A stretch of DNA of 38,975 nt, taken from positions 1 to 38,975 of the forward strand of contig JAEESW010000022.1 in assembly GCA_016290135.1 (NCBI GenBank), written 5' to 3'. The stretch's first letter is position 1. The number at the start of each line of letters is the position of its first letter. The position numbers were made by a program, and so were the translations under genes. The notes under the pieces were generated by a model. That model saw nothing but the letters and a program-made list of their open reading frames with translations, was not told where the DNA came from and made no database searches. This DNA is from a bacterium (GTDB lineage: Bacteria > UBP6 > UBA1177). This document shows, in pieces, positions 3,109-29,782 of this stretch.

Positions 3109-3963
3109 TCATAATTTTTTCATTAAACTCTCAGTATCGATTTCCATTTTGCTGAAAGCGAACCACTTTTTGCCCAAATCCTTGAGCGAAGCCCCGATGT
3201 GGTAAACCGCGTCATCAATGCAGAGAAAGCGGTCGTGGGAATTGGTAAAAACTTCTAATTTTATTGGAGAATATTGTGAATTGTGCTTATCAATATCAAG
3301 CTGTAACTGAGGAGAAAGGCTTTTGGTCAGAATGCGGACATCAACGCCCTCACTATGCTTGTCGAGCATTTTCAGAACGCTGTCATCAATGTAATTATCG
3401 AATAATATTATCTGTTTTTTCGCACTGCGGATCAGGTCGCACACAAATGTATAGGCGTCAAAAATCTGTCCGTTGAAGAAAATCCCCTCGGCCGGCGGCA
3501 AAGCCGTGCGGACAAAAAAATCTATTTTTTCTTCCGTTTTGCTCATCCGGTTTTCCAGCCGTTCAAACCGTTGGTTGACGGAATAACCTTTAAGAAGATA
3601 GTCTTTTAAAACGCTGGTTGCCCACTTACGGAACATCGTAGCGTTAAAACTGTTTACGCGGTATCCGACAGAAAGAATGGCATCAAGATTATAAAATTTG
3701 GTTTTATAAAGTTTCCCGTCAGAGGCAGTATATTCCAAAATGGAATAAACTGAGTTTTCATCCAACTCGCCACTTTTGAAAATATTGTTCAGATGCTTGG
3801 AAATTGCAGGCTGTTTCACACCGAACAGAAAGGCTATCTGTGATTGTGTCAGCCACACCGAGTCATTGCTGATTCTAACCTCAAGATGAACAGCATTATT
3901 CGGCTGATACAAAACTATTTCATTTTCTTTAAAATTAGATTCAAAATAAATATCGTTTCCCAT
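3109..3963 (-). CDS. RhuM family protein with PLD-like C-terminal domain
   Basis: About 284 residues from the ATG at 3963; a GTG at 4017 would add 18 residues, but the family normally begins just before EIVLYQ, as it does with the inner start. Neither start has a clear ribosome site. Residues about 10-125 are a RhuM (Virulence_RhuM) domain: NEIVLYQ, a winged-helix-like WLTQSQIAFLFGVKQPAISK, SDGK-YKTKFYNLDAILSVGYRVNS, and FRKWATSVLKDYLLKGYSVN. A short coiled region follows, then a C-terminal PLD-like domain (FDNYIDDSVL, HDRFLCIDD, GASLKDLGKKWFAFSKM) shared with the truncated protein at the left edge. RhuM is named from a Salmonella pathogenicity island; no activity is established. AT-rich, isolated, possibly mobile. 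Confidence 0.82.
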   Translation of the reverse strand: MGNDIYFESNFKENEIVLYQPNNAVHLEVRISNDSVWLTQSQIAFLFGVKQPAISKHLNNIFKSGELDENSVYSILEYTASDGKLYKTKFYNLDAILSVGYRVNSFNATMFRKWATSVLKDYLLKGYSVNQRFERLENRMSKTEEKIDFFVRTALPPAEGIFFNGQIFDAYTFVCDLIRSAKKQIILFDNYIDDSVLKMLDKHSEGVDVRILTKSLSPQLQLDIDKHNSQYSPIKLEVFTNSHDRFLCIDDAVYHIGASLKDLGKKWFAFSKMEIDTESLMKKL

Positions 3964-4142
3964 ATCATTACCGAACAAAACATTTTTGTCAACTCGATGA
4001 TATTGATTTTTAAACACAGATCAATAAAAATTTATTATAGAAATAAAAACATTTGCCGATTTGATAAAGAATCCAACTATCATAATTCCAAACAGTTCAA
4101 ATTTAGGAAAACAGCAGATTTACAAGAAATGATTTATTTCTC

Positions 4143-7205: not shown

Positions 7206-10200
7206 CACTCTTCCTCATCGTCTTCTTCGTTCTGTTCGTTCCGTTCTTTCTGTTCGTTCCGCTTTTTTTCCTCGCTCTCGATCTTCTCAAGAGCTTTGGC
7301 AGCTTTTTTGTAGAATTTATTATTCTTTGAGACTGTTTTCATAACTTCCTGAAAAAGTCTTTTCGCCTCTTCAGGATCGTCATCTATAACATACATTCCC
7401 TCTTCGTAAAGGTCTTCAGCCTCTTCTGTCGCTTCTTCAGGATCCTCGGTCTCAGCTTTTGAAGCCGGAGTACCGTTCTGAGAGCGGCCGGGCTTCTCGC
7501 TGGGCTTCGTACTGCTTGGCGGCAGATTCTGTTTGATGTAGTAGACCTCGTCTTCGATCATTTTTTTCTCATTGTAGTTATCGACATATTTCAAACAGCG
7601 CTTGAAATAGCGGAGAGCCTCGGCAAGGCTGCCTTTTTCCTTGTAAATGTAACCGAGTTTGCTCATCGAATCGACATCTTTTCTGTCACCGGCGAGAACT
7701 TTTTTGTAGTAGTTTATCGCCTTGTTCGTATCGCCGGAGTCGTAATACATGCCGGCAAGCAGTTTGACTGCAGCGCGGTTGCCTGACCTTTCAGCTTTTT
7801 TGAGGTAATCCATCGCCTTGCTGCGTTTCCCGAGCTGGAGATAACTTTCTCCGATCTCGAGATATGCCTCTTTCAGCAAGGATTTGTCAGTCACTTTGTT
7901 GAAACATCTGATAGCATCCTGATATTCATCGAGATTTTTATGGACGACACCTTTCATCAGCATAAGATCCTGATCTCCCGGGTCGAGCTTTTCAGCCGCC
8001 TCTATCTTTTCCAGAGCGCCTCTGTGGTCTCCGAGCTTCAAGAGGATCCTTGCATAGAGCATATAATTGTCGAAATTTTTCATATCAAGGACAACAGCCG
8101 TCTCGATATCCTTTTCGGCATCGGCATAGCGCTCCATCGTATAGAGTATCTTTGCCTTGAGGTAATAGACCGACGTTTTCTGCGAATCGAGTTCAAGTGA
8201 GCGGTTTATCGCAGCGAGCGCCTTTTCGTAATCTTTCACATGAGCATAGGAGTTTGCCAGAGAAGCATAGCTCTTATACATCCTCTTTTCGACGAAAGTC
8301 TTCTGCTCAAGCTCCGAAATCACGCTTTTCCATTTTCTCTCCTTTTCGAGAGAGTCGATGTAGGACTGCATATAATCATAGTTCAACGGATCGCTCTTGT
8401 AGGCCTTGAGAAGCATCTTTGTCGCTTCCGCATATTTTTTCTGGTCTTTGAGGAACTCGCCGTAGAAGAAGTATACCCTTTCATCACCCGCCGAATTTTT
8501 CTCATTGGCAATTTTGAAGTGTTCCGCCGCACTCTTGTAATCGGCATTTTTATGGTCGATCACAGCCTTTACCAGATGATACGGATACCTGTCTTTTCCG
8601 AGTTTTTCGAGAACGATCATTATCTGTTCAAGATCTTTCACTTTGTTGAAATCAAGCAGCAGGATCTGAGCTTTCGCGATATAAGGTTCGACATACGAAG
8701 GATCCGATTTTATCGAAAGGTCATAGAATTCGATAGCCTTCGCTTTGTCGCCGATATTCGAATAGATCTTCGCGACCCTCGCAAGAAGCTCCGGGTTCGT
8801 CAAAGTCTTGAGTTCAAGTTTCGCAAGTTCAAGATAGATCTTTTCCTTCTGGCCGAGAAGGACATAGACCTCAGTCTTTCCGATGATCGAAGAAGCATGC
8901 TTCGGATCTATTTTGAGGGCCATGTCATAGTATTCCATAGCCTTCGTCGAATCGGAGATCTGGACATAAAAATCAGCGATCTTCGTTATAGCTTCAGTAT
9001 CAGTCTGATTTATTTCGACCGCCTTTTCGTAGTATCCTATCGCTTCACTGACATTCCCGCGTTTTGAAGCCATAGATGCAAGCATCTGATAATATTCGGC
9101 TTTTTGAAAATCTTCAGCTTTGGCAATGACATTATTGTCGATATTTTTGAGGAATTTTTCAGCTTCTGTGAGCCTGTTCTCGCTGTTCATGAGGATCTTC
9201 GATTTGAGCAGATACGCCTTGATGTAGTTCGGAGATTCCGAAATTATCCTGTTGATGAAAGCCATCGCCGACTGCGTGTCGCCGTTCTGATATTTCATAT
9301 TGGCGAGAGCATACATGATCTTCACGCTTTTTCCGCCGCCCTGAATGAAACCTGTGTTGAAAAAGTTTTCCGCTTTTTCGAGATCGTTCTTGCCGCTTGC
9401 GATCAAACCGAGGATGTAGAAGACCTCCTGATCGTTCTTGTCGGTAAAGGGCTGCAGCATCTCGGCCGCCGTGTCATACTGTTTCTGTTCGTAAAGGCAG
9501 AGCGCTTTCGCCTTTACAAGGTCGATATTCCCCTGTGCATTCTTCATAGCGGAATCGATCTTATCGTTTATCGAAGCCGGCGATTCCACCTTTTTGTTGT
9601 ATGAAATGAGGAGATTCATCTTGACCTGACCGTCAAGACCGACGGCACTCGGAGCCGAATCGTCAGGCTTTATGTACTGTTTCAGAATGCCGATACTGTT
9701 GATATAGTCTTCCGGCACATCTTTGTCCAAAGCCTCTCTGACATCAGCCAAAGTTCCTGTATTGACAGCGATCTGCTCGCTTATATTGTCGAGGATATCC
9801 GCAGAATTGTTGCGTTTTGAGTAGAAATAGTAAGCTCCGCCGGCGATTATCGCCAAGATCGCAAGCGTTGCAACTGAAGTCGCCGCATAAAAAAGAGCCG
9901 GACTGCCGCCGCGTCTCTTTCCCTTTTTGGGGGAGCCGCCCTGGACACCAGTCGCGGTATCGCTGAATTCGTCAGGGATATAGACATGCTCGACCTTGCT
10001 GTTCTCATCATCGAAATTGATATCAACTGCGGAATTTTCTTCTCTGTGGATGGCGGTTCCTTCCTCGAAAAGGAGGGAATCCATCGAATCGTCCACCTGA
10101 TCAAGACCGAGAGAAGGTCCGGAAGATGAAAGATCTCCCTGAGCAGCTTCCGGCGCATCGCTGCCGTTCCAGTTCACACCGTCGTAGCTGATATCGTCGT

Positions 10201-11059
10201 CTTCGGAGATCTCGCCGTTTATCATAAGACTATCGACTTCCGATTCATCGACAGGACCTGTGACTTTTCCTGTGGCTTTGTTTCTGAAATAGATCTTCTG
10301 GCTTCCCTGAGCATTTTGAGCCTGTTTCGCCGCCGGAGCGTCACCAAAAAGCTCTTTCAGGAAATCGTCGGTCCCTTCGCTTTTACTGCCGGAGTTGTCT
10401 GACACATCGCCGAAAAGATCATCGGCCGCATCGTCACCGAAAAGGTCGTCAGCCGCCTGTTTCCCCGCATCGGAAGGAGTTCCGGCAGGTTTGTCGGCAA
10501 AAAGAGCGTCAAAATCGTCATCAGACTGCTTTCCAGTCTGCGGAGCGTCTGAAAAAAGCGCATCGGCATCTTTCTGCGCCGGGTCGTCGTCAAAAAGACT
10601 GTCATCAGTTTCATCGAAACGGTCCGAAGCAAGATCAAGGTCTGAACTGCCGCCGCCACCCAGCGAAACGCCTCCTGCATCCGACTGCTGCTGCGCACCA
10701 GATATCTCGTCGTGATATGAAGCGATATCGATCCCTCCGGCATCCTCAGATCCTTCTCCATTCTGAGGAGCTTCATCAGACTGCTGCCCGCTGAAATCAC
10801 CGTCAAGAAGGGCATCGAGATTGTCCGCCGCCTGATTGCTGCTTGCCGGCATTGAGTCAAAAAGGGAATCGACGTCAGATGGATCGTTCCTGTTTTCGGA
10901 AATCCCGCTTTCCGGAAGTTCCGGCTCGTTCTCCGCTCCTTCCCTGAAGACTCTGAACTTGTTCCCGCATGCAGAACACTTTACCGGAAGTCCCTTTTCA
11001 GGCACTTTGGCATCGTCTATCTGATAGTTCGTATTGCAGTGAGGACACACGATTTTCAT
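7205..11059 (-). CDS. Giant MJ0042 zinc-finger / GYF-like / TPR membrane protein
   Basis: A 1284-residue protein. Residues 1-40 are an MJ0042-type zinc ribbon (C5-x-x-C8, C28-x-x-C31). A long Asp/Ser/Ala-rich disordered region follows (to about 250). A GYF_2-like domain (about 256-302: IYFRNKATGKVTGPVDESEV, then W in DGVNW) comes next. A single membrane helix (about 388-412), preceded by a Lys/Arg-rich KKGKRRGG stretch, puts the N-terminus in the cytoplasm. About 700 residues of TPR-type helical pairs (roughly 480-1200) then lie in the periplasm, ending in a highly charged Glu/Lys tail. MJ0042-TPR proteins are frequent in myxobacteria and relatives and usually act as assembly scaffolds; here a client is not shown. 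It sits between the Crp-like gene and coaD. Confidence 0.82.
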   Translation of the reverse strand: MKIVCPHCNTNYQIDDAKVPEKGLPVKCSACGNKFRVFREGAENEPELPESGISENRNDPSDVDSLFDSMPASSNQAADNLDALLDGDFSGQQSDEAPQNGEGSEDAGGIDIASYHDEISGAQQQSDAGGVSLGGGGSSDLDLASDRFDETDDSLFDDDPAQKDADALFSDAPQTGKQSDDDFDALFADKPAGTPSDAGKQAADDLFGDDAADDLFGDVSDNSGSKSEGTDDFLKELFGDAPAAKQAQNAQGSQKIYFRNKATGKVTGPVDESEVDSLMINGEISEDDDISYDGVNWNGSDAPEAAQGDLSSSGPSLGLDQVDDSMDSLLFEEGTAIHREENSAVDINFDDENSKVEHVYIPDEFSDTATGVQGGSPKKGKRRGGSPALFYAATSVATLAILAIIAGGAYYFYSKRNNSADILDNISEQIAVNTGTLADVREALDKDVPEDYINSIGILKQYIKPDDSAPSAVGLDGQVKMNLLISYNKKVESPASINDKIDSAMKNAQGNIDLVKAKALCLYEQKQYDTAAEMLQPFTDKNDQEVFYILGLIASGKNDLEKAENFFNTGFIQGGGKSVKIMYALANMKYQNGDTQSAMAFINRIISESPNYIKAYLLKSKILMNSENRLTEAEKFLKNIDNNVIAKAEDFQKAEYYQMLASMASKRGNVSEAIGYYEKAVEINQTDTEAITKIADFYVQISDSTKAMEYYDMALKIDPKHASSIIGKTEVYVLLGQKEKIYLELAKLELKTLTNPELLARVAKIYSNIGDKAKAIEFYDLSIKSDPSYVEPYIAKAQILLLDFNKVKDLEQIMIVLEKLGKDRYPYHLVKAVIDHKNADYKSAAEHFKIANEKNSAGDERVYFFYGEFLKDQKKYAEATKMLLKAYKSDPLNYDYMQSYIDSLEKERKWKSVISELEQKTFVEKRMYKSYASLANSYAHVKDYEKALAAINRSLELDSQKTSVYYLKAKILYTMERYADAEKDIETAVVLDMKNFDNYMLYARILLKLGDHRGALEKIEAAEKLDPGDQDLMLMKGVVHKNLDEYQDAIRCFNKVTDKSLLKEAYLEIGESYLQLGKRSKAMDYLKKAERSGNRAAVKLLAGMYYDSGDTNKAINYYKKVLAGDRKDVDSMSKLGYIYKEKGSLAEALRYFKRCLKYVDNYNEKKMIEDEVYYIKQNLPPSSTKPSEKPGRSQNGTPASKAETEDPEEATEEAEDLYEEGMYVIDDDPEEAKRLFQEVMKTVSKNNKFYKKAAKALEKIESEEKKRNEQKERNEQNEEDDEEE

Positions 11060-17729: not shown

Positions 17730-18644
17730 ATGACATCACCCAGACTTGAAAGGTTGAAAAAGGAAGCAGGCGGACGGTTTTTCGTATCTCTTTCGGGAAC
17801 AGCGCTCACAAAAAGCGAGATATCGATGCTGCGCGAAGTCTCTCCGTGCGGGATCATATATTTCAAACGGAACATCGAAAGCTGCGGATCGCTGCAAAGC
17901 CTTATCGGATCGACGAAATGTTTCGAATCGATACAGTTCCACTCGATAGATGAGGAAGGAGGAAGAGTCCGCAGACTGCCGAAAGACTACTACTCGCTTC
18001 CTTCAATGAAAGAACTCGCCGCCTGCGGGAAGGAAGCTGCCGCGGAAAAGATCGGCATCCTGGCTCAAAAACTGAGTGAGATCGGCATAAACATGGACAT
18101 GGCGCCTAATGTCGACCTCAGAAGCGGAGAAGATGATTCGATAGTCGGAGACAGATCGTTCAGCGAAGATCCCGGAACAGTTTCAGAATTTGCCGCCATC
18201 TACATCAAAAAAATGCGCGAGGCAGGTGTCTTTCCCGTGATCAAGCACTTTCCCGGACACGGAACGACCGTCATAGACTCGCACTCGGAACTCCCGCTCA
18301 TAAACAAGCCTTATGAAGACCTTTTCAGGGAGGATCTCGTTCCTTACCGCAGACTTGCGAACGCGGCCGGTTTTGTCATGAAAGCCCATCTTCTGCTACC
18401 GGAGATCAGTCCTCTTCCCGCATCACTCTCTCAGGAATGGGACAAGATCCTCCGGAAAGAGACCGGTTTTCTCGGAATTTCGATGACTGACGACATTGAA
18501 ATGCACGCACTCGACATCTTCCCGGCAAAAGAAAAAACAGAACTTTTCTTCAAAAGCGGCACAGACAAGATCCTTATCTGTTCAGGCAGGGAAGAGACCA
18601 TCCTTGAAATGCATGAGGCGGCCGTAAAATTATTGGAAAAATAA
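17730..18644 (+). CDS. nagZ: Beta-N-acetylhexosaminidase, glycoside hydrolase family 3
   Basis: A 304-residue GH3 enzyme that removes N-acetylglucosamine from muropeptides during cell-wall recycling. There is no signal peptide, which fits the cytoplasmic NagZ of Gram-negatives. Motifs: DEEGGRVRRL (about 74-83), DMAPNVDL, VGDRSFSEDP, the substrate-binding K172-H-F-P-G-H-G178, the D-SH-ELP loop with the catalytic His, and the SMTDDIEMHA segment with the nucleophilic Asp (254 or 255). It lacks the C-terminal second GH3 domain, as NagZ does, and is slightly shorter than the E. coli enzyme (341). ATG after AAGGAG. Confidence 0.92.
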   Translation: MTSPRLERLKKEAGGRFFVSLSGTALTKSEISMLREVSPCGIIYFKRNIESCGSLQSLIGSTKCFESIQFHSIDEEGGRVRRLPKDYYSLPSMKELAACGKEAAAEKIGILAQKLSEIGINMDMAPNVDLRSGEDDSIVGDRSFSEDPGTVSEFAAIYIKKMREAGVFPVIKHFPGHGTTVIDSHSELPLINKPYEDLFREDLVPYRRLANAAGFVMKAHLLLPEISPLPASLSQEWDKILRKETGFLGISMTDDIEMHALDIFPAKEKTELFFKSGTDKILICSGREETILEMHEAAVKLLEK

Positions 18645-18671
18645 GTAAAACATATTACTTGATTTTATTTT
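18643..18671 (+). terminator. Weak candidate terminator after nagZ
   Basis: AAGTAA / TTACTT, 6-bp stem with 6-base loop starting inside the nagZ stop codon, followed by GATTTTATTTTT. It overlaps the -35 of the next promoter. Confidence 0.3.
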
Positions 18672-18686
18672 TCACCTAACTATAAT
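18659..18686 (+). promoter_or_regulatory. Promoter for the MshEN-HD-REC gene
   Basis: TTGATT (18659-18664) and a perfect TATAAT (18681-18686), 16-base spacer, about 40 bases before the ATG at 18729. Confidence 0.6.
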
Positions 18687-18728: not shown

Positions 18729-20393
18729 ATGGCTACTATGAAAGTCGGAGAATACTTCTTAGATAAAGGGCTGATTTCCGAATCAGACATTTCTTTGGCT
18801 CTCTCTTTTCAAAAAAACCACCCCACTTATTTAGGCGAGATTTTGTTCAAACTCGGCAAGATTTCTGAAACGGAACTTCTTCAGTATCTCTCGAAACAGT
18901 TCAATGTGCAGTATATAACGAGCGAAAAACTTGAAAAAATGGCTGTGGTGAACCCCGCCGACATCATTCCTGTGAAAATGGCTATGGACAGGACCATTTT
19001 CCCGCTTAAATACAGCATCAACAATTACCGTCTCACCCTTCTCACCTACGAACCGCAGAACATAGTCCTTTTCGATGAGCTGAAGATCCTGCTTAACGGA
19101 GTCCAGACCGTAATTCCTGTCGTGGCGCCGTCCAATGTGATAAAAGCTCTTATCCTCAAACAGTACAGCAACGATGTCAATGCCTTCGACAGACTCGTCA
19201 GAAATACTGTGCAGGTAAACCAGAACATGGGGATGTTCTCAAATGAGACCATCATCAACCTTGAAAATCCGAACGACATCGAAATGGCGAACAGGATCCA
19301 GGATATCTCCACGATGGACGATGACAAGCTGCGTCAGGAAAACAGAGAAACTTTCTCGATGATCGTAAACAAGGCAGAGCTTTCGGACCAGAAACTCGAT
19401 GTCACCGCGGTTACGACGTCAATGATGAGCAATATGCCGAGCTGGGTCCGCGAACAGGGAAACCAGCTGATCGAACTTCTCAGGGTCTTCTCGAACCTTC
19501 TCGATGTGGCGCGTGGAGACGAATATTTCGCTCATTCTCAAAGGGTCGCGATTCTGTGCAAAGAGATCGGCGAAGCAATACACCTTTCCGAAGTCGAGCT
19601 TTACGACCTCACGATCGCGGCATACCTCCACGATGTCGGCAAGAAAGTCCATCTTACCGCCCTTGATATAAAAAATCAGACAAGTCTGGAAAAGATGAAA
19701 AATTATTCTCTGGTCGTCACGAAACTTTTCACAGACGTCCAGCTTTCGAAACTGGCTCTCAACTGTCTCGAAAATATGTATGAGACCTATAACGGTCAAG
19801 GCTTTCCCCGCGGGCTCAAACTTAATGAGATCCCGATCGGTTCGCTCATCCTGCTCCTTGCAAACACCTACGATTTCATGACGAGGATCTCGAATATTCC
19901 GCCGAAAGAAGCTCTCCGGCAGTTGAAAGAGACCATGTTCTTCAGCGACAGGATAATCGAAGCTCTTGAGCAGACTCAGCAGATATCGGAAGCGAACTCG
20001 TCGCTGAAAAAGATCACCGCTATCGTTATCTCGCAGAAAAAATTCGACCTTGACGACATCGCCGACAAGTTCGGAAGAGTCAATGTCGATGTCATAAAAG
20101 CGAAGACCATAGAAAAGGCAGCACAGATAATCAAGGAGGAAAAGAACCGTCTCGGCTTCATCCTCTGTGACATAGACATGACCGACAGCGCGATCACTCC
20201 GCTCAGACTTCTTGCGGCGATCAAGCACAAAAAGGAGATATCGGAGATCCCGTTCTACCTTTTCTCGCAGTATTCGGTCGACAAAAACACAACTATCGCT
20301 GCAAACGCGCTCAAAGTTTCAGGCATTTTCGCAAATTATCACCCTGTCGAAATGACAAGAAAGATCGCGGACGAAATCAGGAAAAAAAGCTAA
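18729..20393 (+). CDS. MshEN - degenerate HD-GYP - receiver-like signalling protein
   Basis: A 554-residue soluble protein with three parts. Residues 5-57 carry two consecutive MshEN c-di-GMP-binding motifs (K-V-G-xx-F-L-xx-G with L25 and Q28; then Y-L-G-xx-L-xx-L-G with L54 and Q57). A central HD domain (about 260-400) has H301-D302-V-G-K and NGQGFP (355-360) followed by EIPIGSLILLLANTYDFMT, the HD-GYP layout. But the HHE and HxxxDGxGYP histidines are replaced, so phosphodiesterase activity is doubtful. Residues about 430-552 resemble a CheY-type receiver (FILCDIDM, IPFYLFSQY, ending EMTRKIADEI). Likely a c-di-GMP receptor in motility or development rather than a hydrolase. The ATG follows GGAG. 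Confidence 0.82.
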   Translation: MATMKVGEYFLDKGLISESDISLALSFQKNHPTYLGEILFKLGKISETELLQYLSKQFNVQYITSEKLEKMAVVNPADIIPVKMAMDRTIFPLKYSINNYRLTLLTYEPQNIVLFDELKILLNGVQTVIPVVAPSNVIKALILKQYSNDVNAFDRLVRNTVQVNQNMGMFSNETIINLENPNDIEMANRIQDISTMDDDKLRQENRETFSMIVNKAELSDQKLDVTAVTTSMMSNMPSWVREQGNQLIELLRVFSNLLDVARGDEYFAHSQRVAILCKEIGEAIHLSEVELYDLTIAAYLHDVGKKVHLTALDIKNQTSLEKMKNYSLVVTKLFTDVQLSKLALNCLENMYETYNGQGFPRGLKLNEIPIGSLILLLANTYDFMTRISNIPPKEALRQLKETMFFSDRIIEALEQTQQISEANSSLKKITAIVISQKKFDLDDIADKFGRVNVDVIKAKTIEKAAQIIKEEKNRLGFILCDIDMTDSAITPLRLLAAIKHKKEISEIPFYLFSQYSVDKNTTIAANALKVSGIFANYHPVEMTRKIADEIRKKS

Positions 20394-23056: not shown

Positions 23057-23599
23057 TCAAAGTTCTGAAAGCAGTCCGTAATAATACAAACTCGGGTAGG
23101 CGCCGGTGATATCAGCAGTTATCTCGCTTGCCGAATTGCTTAAAACAACGACTCTCGGCATGACATCGGTCTTTTCGAGCGAAAGTTCCTTCGGAGATGA
23201 AACGACCGCCATTTCAGGGACAACACCGCCGTATTCCTGACCTTCCTGAATATCATTTTCAAGGTAAAGACGGATGAAAAACACGCGGTTCCCGAAATAG
23301 GAGACCAGTTTGGCCGTCGTCTCCTTCATTTCAGGACATGCCTCGCACCATGAAGCTGAAAGTTCGATAAAAACTATGCTTTTCTGCGCTATTCTGCTCA
23401 GCGGATACTCCTCTTTCGTGTAGATGTCACGGACGATCACCTCATCTGCAAGCGATCTTTTCTTTTTCAGTTCAACAGGCTTCGGGCTATCTTCGGTCTG
23501 AACATCCTGATCTTCATCATTCCTGACTTTTTCGGTCGTGGCGCAGGAAAAAAAAGAAAAAATGAGAAAAAATAAGACAAAGACTGAACTAATTTTCAT
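23057..23599 (-). CDS. Thioredoxin-like lipoprotein (last gene of the lapAB run)
   Basis: A 180-residue protein from the ATG at 23599; an upstream in-frame start would place it before the signal peptide. Signal peptide ends in SFFSC (Cys19, Ala at +2), so it is a membrane-attached periplasmic protein. Residues about 50-180 form a thioredoxin fold with ASWCEACPEM, active-site C85-x-x-C88 (WCEAC rather than WCGPC), and a cis-Pro region near MPRVVVLS. Predicted thiol-disulfide exchange at the cell surface. It overlaps the upstream Cys-rich lipoprotein gene by 11 bases. A thiol redox partner beside a protein with over 30 cysteines is a sensible pairing. Confidence 0.82.
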   Translation of the reverse strand: MKISSVFVLFFLIFSFFSCATTEKVRNDEDQDVQTEDSPKPVELKKKRSLADEVIVRDIYTKEEYPLSRIAQKSIVFIELSASWCEACPEMKETTAKLVSYFGNRVFFIRLYLENDIQEGQEYGGVVPEMAVVSSPKELSLEKTDVMPRVVVLSNSASEITADITGAYPSLYYYGLLSEL

Positions 23600-24728
23600 A
23601 AGTCGGCAGACATTGAGGTTCCTGACAAACACGGACTTCGCTGCCGTCATCTCCGGTAACTGCTACACAGTAAAGGGATGCGCACTGTTCACCACCGGTG
23701 CACGGAGTTCCGGCGCTTTTCGGCCATTGGCATGTATGCGACGAAGAATCGCAGTAAAGACCTCTGTCCGAATCACAGTATTCAGAACACTGAAGATTGG
23801 AATCAGCGGACATTTTCTGGCAGACATTCGCCGCGCCGCACTCAAGTTTCGAGAAACGGTTGCACTCAAGAACGATGTCGTTTCCGTTTTCATCCTGCTC
23901 CGGCTGGACCCCGCACGGAGAACCGACAGTATCGCTTATCCTCGAACGGGTGCAGAGATTGTCGACACAACTCAGGCCGACTACACATTCGTTGGTGTCG
24001 GTGCATGCAAGACCTTCGCTTTTTCTCTTGAGGCATACTCCGAAAGAATCGCCCTCTTTGACATAGCAGAAAAGGAACGTCGTGCAGTCACTGTTGCTCA
24101 CACACGGATCGTTGACGACTCCGGTACTTGACTTCGAGCAGCCTGAAGAACGGCACTCGTATCCGATGACACACTTGTCAAGCGATGAATTGCAGGTCTG
24201 GTCGGGCTGTTTGTAGTCAACGCACGCTCCGGGGCAGACATCGCCGCGCATGTTGCACCAGCCGTTTTTGCACTCTTCATCCTGATTGCACTCCTGTCTG
24301 AGCTGTTTTGTCCCTTTGAAAACATTGGCGCACTCGGGAATGTCGAGGAGCTGAACATCAAGAGGATTGCACGGCTCCATCTGCGAGATCACAGAAAAAC
24401 AACTTTCCGCCTGAGCCATGTCGAGTGAGATCCACCCCATTTCCTCAGCGTTCGCCAGCATTTCATACTTGTGCTTGAAAATTACAGATTCACCTTTATG
24501 AAAAGCTTCGAAAGGTTTCGCTGAATTCAATATCGTCCTCGGACAGAAAGAGAGATTCTCCTCGTTCACAAAACCGGACGCGCATTTAGATGCGGCGTTG
24601 CAGAGCGTGTCAAGATATCTTTCGAAAAAACCAGCAGTGTTCATCCCGCCGTCATTCGACTTGGAATCACCGCCGCCGCATGCGGAAAGCAGCGAAACTA
24701 AAGTGAGAACAAAAAACAGTTTTTTCAT
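23589..24728 (-). CDS. Cys-rich lipoprotein
   Basis: A 379-residue lipoprotein: signal peptide MKKLFFVLTLVSLLSAC (Cys17, Gly at +2), ATG after AGGAGG. Residues about 30-130 hold a helical-looking domain with few cysteines (CNAASKCASGF). From about 133 on, repeated Dickkopf-like or EGF-like Cys motifs (CNQDEECKNGWC, CVSNSDCTTFLFCY, CTDTNECVVGLSCV, CTGGEQCASLYC) give a disulfide-rich extracellular region; myxobacterial genomes have many proteins of this kind. Immediately after lapB and overlapping the thioredoxin-like gene. Function not recognised. Confidence 0.78.
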   Translation of the reverse strand: MKKLFFVLTLVSLLSACGGGDSKSNDGGMNTAGFFERYLDTLCNAASKCASGFVNEENLSFCPRTILNSAKPFEAFHKGESVIFKHKYEMLANAEEMGWISLDMAQAESCFSVISQMEPCNPLDVQLLDIPECANVFKGTKQLRQECNQDEECKNGWCNMRGDVCPGACVDYKQPDQTCNSSLDKCVIGYECRSSGCSKSSTGVVNDPCVSNSDCTTFLFCYVKEGDSFGVCLKRKSEGLACTDTNECVVGLSCVDNLCTRSRISDTVGSPCGVQPEQDENGNDIVLECNRFSKLECGAANVCQKMSADSNLQCSEYCDSDRGLYCDSSSHTCQWPKSAGTPCTGGEQCASLYCVAVTGDDGSEVRVCQEPQCLPTYEN

Positions 24729-28525: not shown

Positions 28526-29782
28526 TTATTCACACATACCTGTCGGATTCTCATCATAATACTTGCTGCCGCTCATCGTCATCAAAAGAGAGCACTGGCA
28601 GGCCAGTTTGTGAGTACCGGGCTCAGTGTAGCAGGCACCGTAAAGACCTAAAAGAGAATCATCGCAGAATCCTGACGGACAGGTCGCAGTGCAGCCGGGA
28701 GTGCTCAAGTTTGCCGGAGGATTATCGACATCGCATACCGTACACATGACGTTGTTCGGAATATCTGAAAGACTGCACACAACAGATTCGCCCAAACCGT
28801 TTGTCAGCCAGCCCTGTTCGCATTCACAGGTCGAAAAATTGCAGTGACCTGCAATAGTAGTCGTGCTGCCCAGCAAATTTGAACAAGAATACTCTTTAAA
28901 ACATCTTTTTGCATTACATTCTTTGACGCATACATTGTTGTTGGAAACAAAACCATTCTCACAACCGCACTTTTCCGTGCCGTTTTCGACGACGCACGAA
29001 ACTGCGTGTTCGCCGCAGAAATGGGCTACATCGCAGCTTTTGCAGTCCGCACCGGAATAATATTCATCGCACTGATTGCAGCCTGCTTCGTTGGTCGTAT
29101 AATCGATCCCGCAGACTTTCGGCGCGGTGCAGGTCATATTCGTGCAGTCGGGTTTGCATTTGCCGTCACTGTTGCTCTTGAGATAACCTTCAACACAGCC
29201 CTCGCACCATCTTCCGGCCGAATGAGTCGACGTGGAGCATGTGCATTTGACAGTATCGCCCTCTTCACGGCAGCCGCTATTATTGCACGGATTCGGATTG
29301 CATGTCAGATTGACTACGCATGAGCGGATATCGGGATTTCCGTCTTCATCGTCACCCTCAGCCTCAAGGTGATAACCCTCTTTGCATTCCGAACAGTCTT
29401 CACCATTGTGATTTTCCTTGCAGGTGCATTTTCCAGTCGTAAAATCGCAGTCACCGAAACCGCTGCAAGCATTCGGACATGAGATAACATCATCAGGGAC
29501 CTCGGCATCAACGTCATTTTCACTCGGCAAAACGCTGTCGTCAGGCAATTCGCCTTCCGGAGCATCGTTCTGTTCGGGAAGATCCGAAGTATCGTCCAGA
29601 TCGCCGTCTGTCTCTGAAGGATCGTTCTCGGTTTCGGCACTCGGTGCACGGCAGACCGAATCAATGCATAAAAAACCGTTAGGACAGTCAAACGCAGTGA
29701 CACAGGCATCATCCTCATCCGAAGAGCATGCTGCAAAGACAAGCAAAAACATCAAAACTAAGACCAACTTTAAATTTTTCAT
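28526..29782 (-). CDS. EGF-like Cys-rich lipoprotein
   Basis: A 418-residue lipoprotein: signal peptide MKNLKLVLVLMFLLVFAAC (Cys19, Ser at +2), ATG after GGAGG. A short CVTAFDCPNGFLCIDSVCR disulfide knot follows, then an acidic Asp/Glu/Pro/Thr linker (about 48-104), then EGF-like and laminin-EGF-like repeats (CSGFGDCDFTTGKCTC, CNNSGCREEGDTVKC, WCEGCVEGYL, CDEYYSGADCKSC, HCNFSTCECEQGW) to the C-terminus. Bacterial EGF-repeat proteins of this kind occur in myxobacteria and relatives. Function not known; an extracellular binding role is likely. Own promoter at 29809-29836. Confidence 0.8.
   Translation of the reverse strand: MKNLKLVLVLMFLLVFAACSSDEDDACVTAFDCPNGFLCIDSVCRAPSAETENDPSETDGDLDDTSDLPEQNDAPEGELPDDSVLPSENDVDAEVPDDVISCPNACSGFGDCDFTTGKCTCKENHNGEDCSECKEGYHLEAEGDDEDGNPDIRSCVVNLTCNPNPCNNSGCREEGDTVKCTCSTSTHSAGRWCEGCVEGYLKSNSDGKCKPDCTNMTCTAPKVCGIDYTTNEAGCNQCDEYYSGADCKSCDVAHFCGEHAVSCVVENGTEKCGCENGFVSNNNVCVKECNAKRCFKEYSCSNLLGSTTTIAGHCNFSTCECEQGWLTNGLGESVVCSLSDIPNNVMCTVCDVDNPPANLSTPGCTATCPSGFCDDSLLGLYGACYTEPGTHKLACQCSLLMTMSGSKYYDENPTGMCE

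Follow-up and report, generated by a model that had tools for sequence, protein, structure and literature searches.

A maintained MshEN protein with a degenerate HD-GYP domain and a pseudo-receiver in the candidate phylum UBP6

The gene at positions 18729–20393 of the window (i.e., the whole stretch of 38,975 nucleotides analysed here, one contig of the 2.47 Mb genome of a bacterium from the rumen, placed in the candidate phylum UBP6) encodes a protein in which an MshEN domain is followed by two domains that resemble signalling enzymes but have lost the residues on which their chemistry depends. Comparison with its orthologs indicates that this product is a maintained pseudoenzyme under strong purifying selection, and the reading that we favor, with a probability of about 0.62, is that of a conserved non-catalytic c-di-GMP receptor/adaptor. 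The domain architecture and its conservation are real, far above chance, since each of the order's 25 genomes carries one ortholog and dN/dS within the genus is approximately 0.04. The earlier note on this DNA had delimited the gene correctly. It is a single open frame of 554 codons plus stop, and the features discussed below, all on the forward strand, are the following:

17730..18644, +, nagZ-like β-N-acetylhexosaminidase gene, given as context (PF00933, 177 bits)
18659..18686, +, sigma-70-like promoter TTGATT-16-TATAAT preceding the gene (hexamers largely conserved in the genus)
18729..20393, +, whole gene, MshEN – pseudo-HD-GYP – pseudo-receiver, 554 amino acids + stop (intact single ORF)
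18741..18812, +, MshEN motif I, residues 5–28, KVGEYFLDKGLISESDISLALSFQ (11/11 of the relaxed pattern, PMC5013675)
18828..18899, +, MshEN motif II, residues 34–57, YLGEILFKLGKISETELLQYLSKQ (9/11 of the same pattern)
18951..19172, +, MshEN C-terminal subdomain, residues 75–148 (PF05157, 25.9 bits, cut-off 23.1)
19458..19973, +, degenerate HD-GYP domain, residues ~244–415 (PF13487, hhalign, alignment to PmGH 4mcw)
19629..19643, +, retained HDxGK: H301 D302 V G K305 (H301, D302 and K305 in 24/24 orthologs)
19776..19808, +, replaced HHExxDGxGYP: M350 Y351 E T Y N355 G Q G F P (ortholog counts)
20001..20390, +, pseudo-receiver, residues ~425–554 (PF00072 in orthologs, hhalign, AF2/Foldseek)

Domain layout and distribution

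The order of the domains is MshEN (~1–150), a flexible linker, the degenerate HD-GYP (~244–415) and the pseudo-receiver (~425–554). The fusion of these three elements recognised in the earlier note is borne out by family profiles scoring over their cut-offs and, for the receiver-like part, by the CheY fold returned by Foldseek and by hhalign. The AF2 model of the full-length protein is poor (pLDDT 56.8) and gives no basis for an inter-domain mechanism, although the secondary structure that it predicts is in line with the domains assigned. The family profile search detected no T2SSE ATPase domain behind MshEN in the 554 residues, and identity with an MshEN-ATPase of the MshE/PilB/GspE type was rejected on this basis. 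An open reading frame lies antisense to the gene at window positions 19419–20228 (−).

The fusion differs from the usual MshEN-ATPase layout, as the earlier note had maintained, but its novelty was overstated, since Wang et al. recorded in 2016 that MshEN occurs fused to HD-GYP as well as to REC (PMC5013675) and MXAN_2807 of Myxococcus xanthus is known to possess MshEN and HD-GYP (PMC8844925). Like these proteins, the one described here has MshEN joined to HD-GYP, the joining of MshEN to receivers being also on record; unlike them, as far as their descriptions go, it has a degenerate HD-GYP and an additional, degenerate receiver at its C-terminus. Given these fusions and the inactive HD-GYP of DvhD considered below, the protein is only a variant on known themes: its building blocks were already known, the fixed combination of MshEN, pseudo-HD-GYP and pseudo-receiver has not been previously studied, and what is new is that MshEN is associated with two fixed pseudo-domains in every sampled genome of one order.

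The comparisons that follow concern 24 full-length orthologs from eight genera and three families, the copy of genome G025, which is cut by a contig end, having been left out. The nearest named records are for the most part metagenome genomes from rumen or gut, two bearing the label UBP6 and others Spirochaetales or Sumerlaeota, so that the attribution to Myxococcota previously contemplated does not hold. In a further family of the same phylum (f4) the full-length protein was not found; the best matches to its N-terminus there are short MshEN proteins of 245–268 amino acids having R/K-LG motifs and no HD (L074:5137-5871, L075:5784-6587 and L076:876-1643), which were excluded from the count of full orthologs.

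The MshEN domain and its c-di-GMP motifs

The host is predicted both to synthesise and to break down c-di-GMP, being endowed with two GGEEF proteins, one EAL protein (a REC-GGDEF-EAL with a degenerate GGDEF) and three HD-GYP proteins; it also has two PilZ proteins and, elsewhere in the genome, three MshEN-type ATPases, both motifs being well kept only in that of contig C24.

The MshEN domain is recognised by NF053729 over residues 6–57 (50.6 bits, cut-off 38) and, in its C-terminal subdomain, by PF05157, which is also matched by 23 of the 24 orthologs. The two motifs, separated by a spacer of five residues (29–33), are located where the earlier note had placed them, and its claim that both are present stands in full for motif I, which fits the relaxed pattern at every position, and in part for motif II, in which Tyr34 occurs where Arg/Lys/Leu is expected and Lys44 where a hydrophobic residue is expected. 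The Leu set and the position-3 glycine of each motif are retained. Among the orthologs, Q28 of motif I is invariant (24/24), G7 is found in 23/23 and position 1 is K/R in the 23 cases in which it is read; all 24 also share L35, G36, L50 and L54 in motif II, whose position 24 (Q57) is occupied by Q in 13, R in six and I in five. In family f3 motif II lies further off the consensus, with Lys at position 10 and Ile at position 24, so that some members of the protein family may not bind the ligand.

The most instructive comparison is offered by PilF of Thermus thermophilus, whose GSPII-B domain has Lys and Leu in place of the two Arg and binds c-di-GMP with an affinity of ~6 nM, a finding that led its authors to widen the MshEN consensus to R/K/L at position 1 (PMC11731258). 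The domain of the UBP6 protein shares with GSPII-B the Lys at position 1 of motif I and a non-Arg hydrophobic residue at position 1 of motif II; unlike it, it carries Lys at position 11 of motif II and belongs to a protein other than a traffic ATPase with three such domains. The Lys5/Tyr34 pair is thus compatible with c-di-GMP binding in view of the GSPII-B precedent, but the extension to Tyr is an extrapolation, since this residue falls outside the widened consensus, and binding by the MshEN domain is considered here only plausible because motif II deviates.

Indeed, these deviations also lend themselves to the opposite reading, namely that MshEN has lost its ligand and that the protein is a scaffold, a docking platform operating independently of c-di-GMP. 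The precedent is the GSPII-A domain of PilF, with one near-perfect and one poor motif, which shows that an MshEN-like domain can fail to bind even when the consensus is restored (PMC12002112), and the departures of motif II, two in the protein of the window, rise up to three in f3, where the phosphate-contacting Gln at position 24 is Ile. On the other hand, the constancy of Q28 and G7 in motif I and of the invariant Leu and Gly residues of motif II, together with the very high affinity with which GSPII-B tolerates a hydrophobic first-position residue, weigh against the loss of binding, and we regard a pure scaffold as unlikely.

Two fixed pseudo-domains

PF13487 (HD_5, the HD-GYP model) matches residues 264–400 with 56.6 bits (cut-off 27.2; E-value 3.5e-15) and is matched by 24/24 orthologs, and hhalign against the intact HD-GYPs of the same genome gives a probability of 99.3. 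Assignment to HDOD was rejected, PF08668 scoring 23.1 bits vs 56.6 for PF13487 and the NGxGxP loop aligning with the GYP loop. A plasmid search yielded partial matches to the HD part only, none covering 80% of the query.

The eight metal ligands of PmGH (4mcw) are known, and single changes at most of them abolish its activity (PMC4159591); this enzyme was therefore taken as alignment reference and the equivalents of its ligands were counted over the 24 orthologs. Only H189, H221 and D222 have invariant counterparts (H269, H301 and D302, 24/24), the H301-D302 pair being that which the earlier note had seen to be kept. H250 corresponds to Y326 (Tyr in 24/24), and H276 and H277, replaced in all the orthologs, correspond to M350 (22/24, with Val in the other two) and Y351 (24/24), respectively. 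Asp D305, the metal ligand of helix 5, corresponds to N379, a position held by Asn in 11 orthologs (the window clade), Asp in 12 and His in one lineage, and the equivalent of E185 is variable. The Glu of HHE is retained (E352, 24/24), the Asp of DG is replaced by Asn (N355) in 23/24 and by Ser in one, and, of the substrate ligands, Arg314 corresponds to Ile390, hydrophobic in 24/24, and K317 to a variable residue. The alignment thus confirms the loss of the HHE histidines and of the DG Asp that had been claimed (M350, Y351 and N355) and adds to it the changes H250 → Y326, D305 → N379 (in the window clade) and Arg314 → Ile390. An internal control is provided by three further proteins of this genome, whose four HD-GYP domains all keep HHExxDG; one of these proteins (L078, G000:C38, 424 amino acids), a tandem HD-GYP with both HHExxDG intact, is present throughout the genus.

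Since the counterparts of H250, H276 and H277, the DG Asp and the substrate Arg are all replaced, phosphodiesterase activity appears very unlikely, and its loss, taken alone, can be predicted from the alignments with high confidence, in keeping with the earlier prediction that the protein is not a phosphodiesterase. It could nevertheless be argued that H269 and H301-D302, with K305, form a one-metal site hydrolysing some other substrate under the control of MshEN. In fact, all 24 orthologs have H269, R272, H301, D302, K305 and D382 in spite of the loss of the GYP-specific His, a retention exceeding what a dead scaffold would seem to need; however, this invariance may reflect a structural role of these residues, D305 has given way to Asn in 11/24 orthologs, those of the window clade, and to His in one lineage, most ligand changes inactivate PmGH and the substrate Arg is gone, all of which renders such an activity quite improbable.

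Degenerate HD domains are not without parallel. The best PDB sequence match is V-cGAP3 (5z7c), one of whose two HD domains is degenerate, with NGQG for DGxG; V-cGAP3 is a phosphodiesterase of 3′3′-cGAMP, has its HD domains in tandem and lacks an MshEN. According to the available part of its description, Bd1817 of Bdellovibrio (PDB 3tm8), matched by profile, is likewise an inactive unconventional HD-GYP, in which the two-iron site is kept and the GYP Tyr is lost, neither MshEN nor a receiver being mentioned in that part. The closest analogy concerns DvhD of Desulfovibrio vulgaris, a solved inactive HD-GYP in which HH is changed to Met-Asn and which acts as a c-di-GMP receptor/switch module (PMC13090378); the PDB entries 9rbz and 9rc0 apparently correspond to it. 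Both are signalling proteins whose HD-GYP, dead in DvhD and predicted to be so here, has other residues in place of HH, but DvhD consists of a periplasmic dCache, PAS and HD-GYP, shows SQ where the HD pair has been lost and uses its HD-GYP to bind c-di-GMP, whereas the UBP6 protein keeps the HD pair and has a separate MshEN as well as a pseudo-receiver. By analogy, its pseudo-HD-GYP could be a second, metal-free c-di-GMP receptor, making the protein a two-site sensor. The metal-free binding by DvhD, the Met common to both proteins at the first His and a match (E 1.1e-6) extending over most of the domain would be consistent with this possibility; yet with Ile390 for R314, a variable residue for K317 and Asn for the DG Asp we consider it rather remote.

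For the last 130 residues of the protein encoded in the window Pfam gives no match; PF00072 (Response_reg) matches 3/24 orthologs, at best with 9.3e-5. hhalign against true RECs of the same phylum gives a probability of 95.2%, vs 0.2 and 4.3% for two control domains, and, when the domain is modelled in isolation by AF2 (pLDDT 71.7, the last third being of low confidence), Foldseek returns CheY as the best fold (E 3.9e-6, TM 0.70). An Asp is found at the phospho-acceptor position in 24/24 orthologs (D481), the acidic Mg pair of receivers is lost (S435/Q436) and the Lys of the KP motif aligns with His538, the position being His in 18/24 orthologs and Lys in one. On these residues, phosphorylation of the pseudo-receiver is uncertain.

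The identity between families falls to 37–39%, and the replaced catalytic positions are nonetheless the same. Pairwise dN/dS values with close relatives range from 0.04 to 0.06, being approximate because dS is high; with respect to L006 the ratio is 0.04 for both MshEN and HD, 0.10 for the linker and lowest, 0.02, for the pseudo-receiver. The term “eroded” applied earlier to the HD-GYP is therefore misleading, the same losses recurring in 24/24 orthologs of three families under strong purifying selection, and the notion of a decaying phosphodiesterase gene heading for loss, to which the replaced catalytic motifs might lead, is rejected as virtually impossible in view of these identical replacements, the low dN/dS, the lack of stop codons and the conserved promoter.

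Gene neighbourhood and possible mode of action

The gene has a promoter of its own, and in 12 loci of the genus both hexamers, as well as the GGAG-type ribosome site downstream of them, are for the most part conserved. The nagZ-like gene (NF003740, 205.6 bits, just below the cut-off of 207) ends 84 bases before the MshEN gene on the same strand of the window and is upstream in all the genus loci examined save L031, which has a PBP2 (mrdA)-like gene instead. In sister genera (L032, L071 and L077) the ortholog is divergent from mraZ-rsmH-ftsL-like-ftsI-murE-murF-murD-ftsW, an arrangement found also in L072 with two short intervening ORFs, and in L068 and L070 it is preceded by an N-acetylmuramoyl-L-alanine amidase gene. 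A REC-GGDEF gene is upstream in L066 and neither this nor a cell-wall gene is upstream in L067 and L069. Peptidoglycan or division genes thus adjoin the ortholog in most lineages; this suggests a possible envelope role, against which it counts that in G018, G020 and G021 the immediate upstream neighbour is not a cell-wall gene. The mraZ/dcw, nagZ, amidase and mrdA neighbours also prompt a more specific reading, in which peptidoglycan synthesis or division in UBP6 would be linked to c-di-GMP by a lineage-specific effector made of an active MshEN and the two fixed pseudo-domains; this reading is doubtful. On the downstream side, the neighbour facing the ortholog is repeatedly a gene for a C25 (gingipain-type) peptidase whose tail is Cys-rich, as in L071 (L071:10849-13215) and likewise beside the orthologs in L032, L066, L068, L070 and L072.

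If the protein is the receptor/adaptor that we favor, its N-terminal MshEN would bind one c-di-GMP, and this event may alter the dimer arrangement or the inter-domain contacts through the flexible linker. Pseudo-HD-GYP and pseudo-receiver, predicted to lack their usual chemistry, could serve as surfaces for oligomerisation or partner docking and pass the c-di-GMP state on to a target protein; because both enzyme-like parts have lost activity, the signal is probably relayed by protein contacts. The target might belong to an envelope or cell-wall process, as hinted at by the gene neighbourhood. Should c-di-GMP indeed be bound, the protein would be an effector occurring in every examined genome of one uncultured bacterial order, in which two signalling-enzyme folds have been reused purely as interaction modules.

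Other proteins of the window, all encoded on the opposite strand, include a putative lipoprotein (23592–24728, −) with a Dickkopf_N-like stretch rich in cysteine (PF04706, 28.5 bits), this domain being known by name mostly from animals, and with related proteins at the corresponding site elsewhere in the genus; a protein with a laminin-EGF-like stretch (28529–29782, −; PF00053, 26.2 bits); one joining a RhuM-type domain (3112–4017, −; PF13310) to a PLD-like domain that scores weakly, slightly below its cut-off (PF13091); and a protein of 1284 amino acids (7208–11059, −) that has a zinc ribbon (PF13717) at its N-terminus and numerous TPR repeats.
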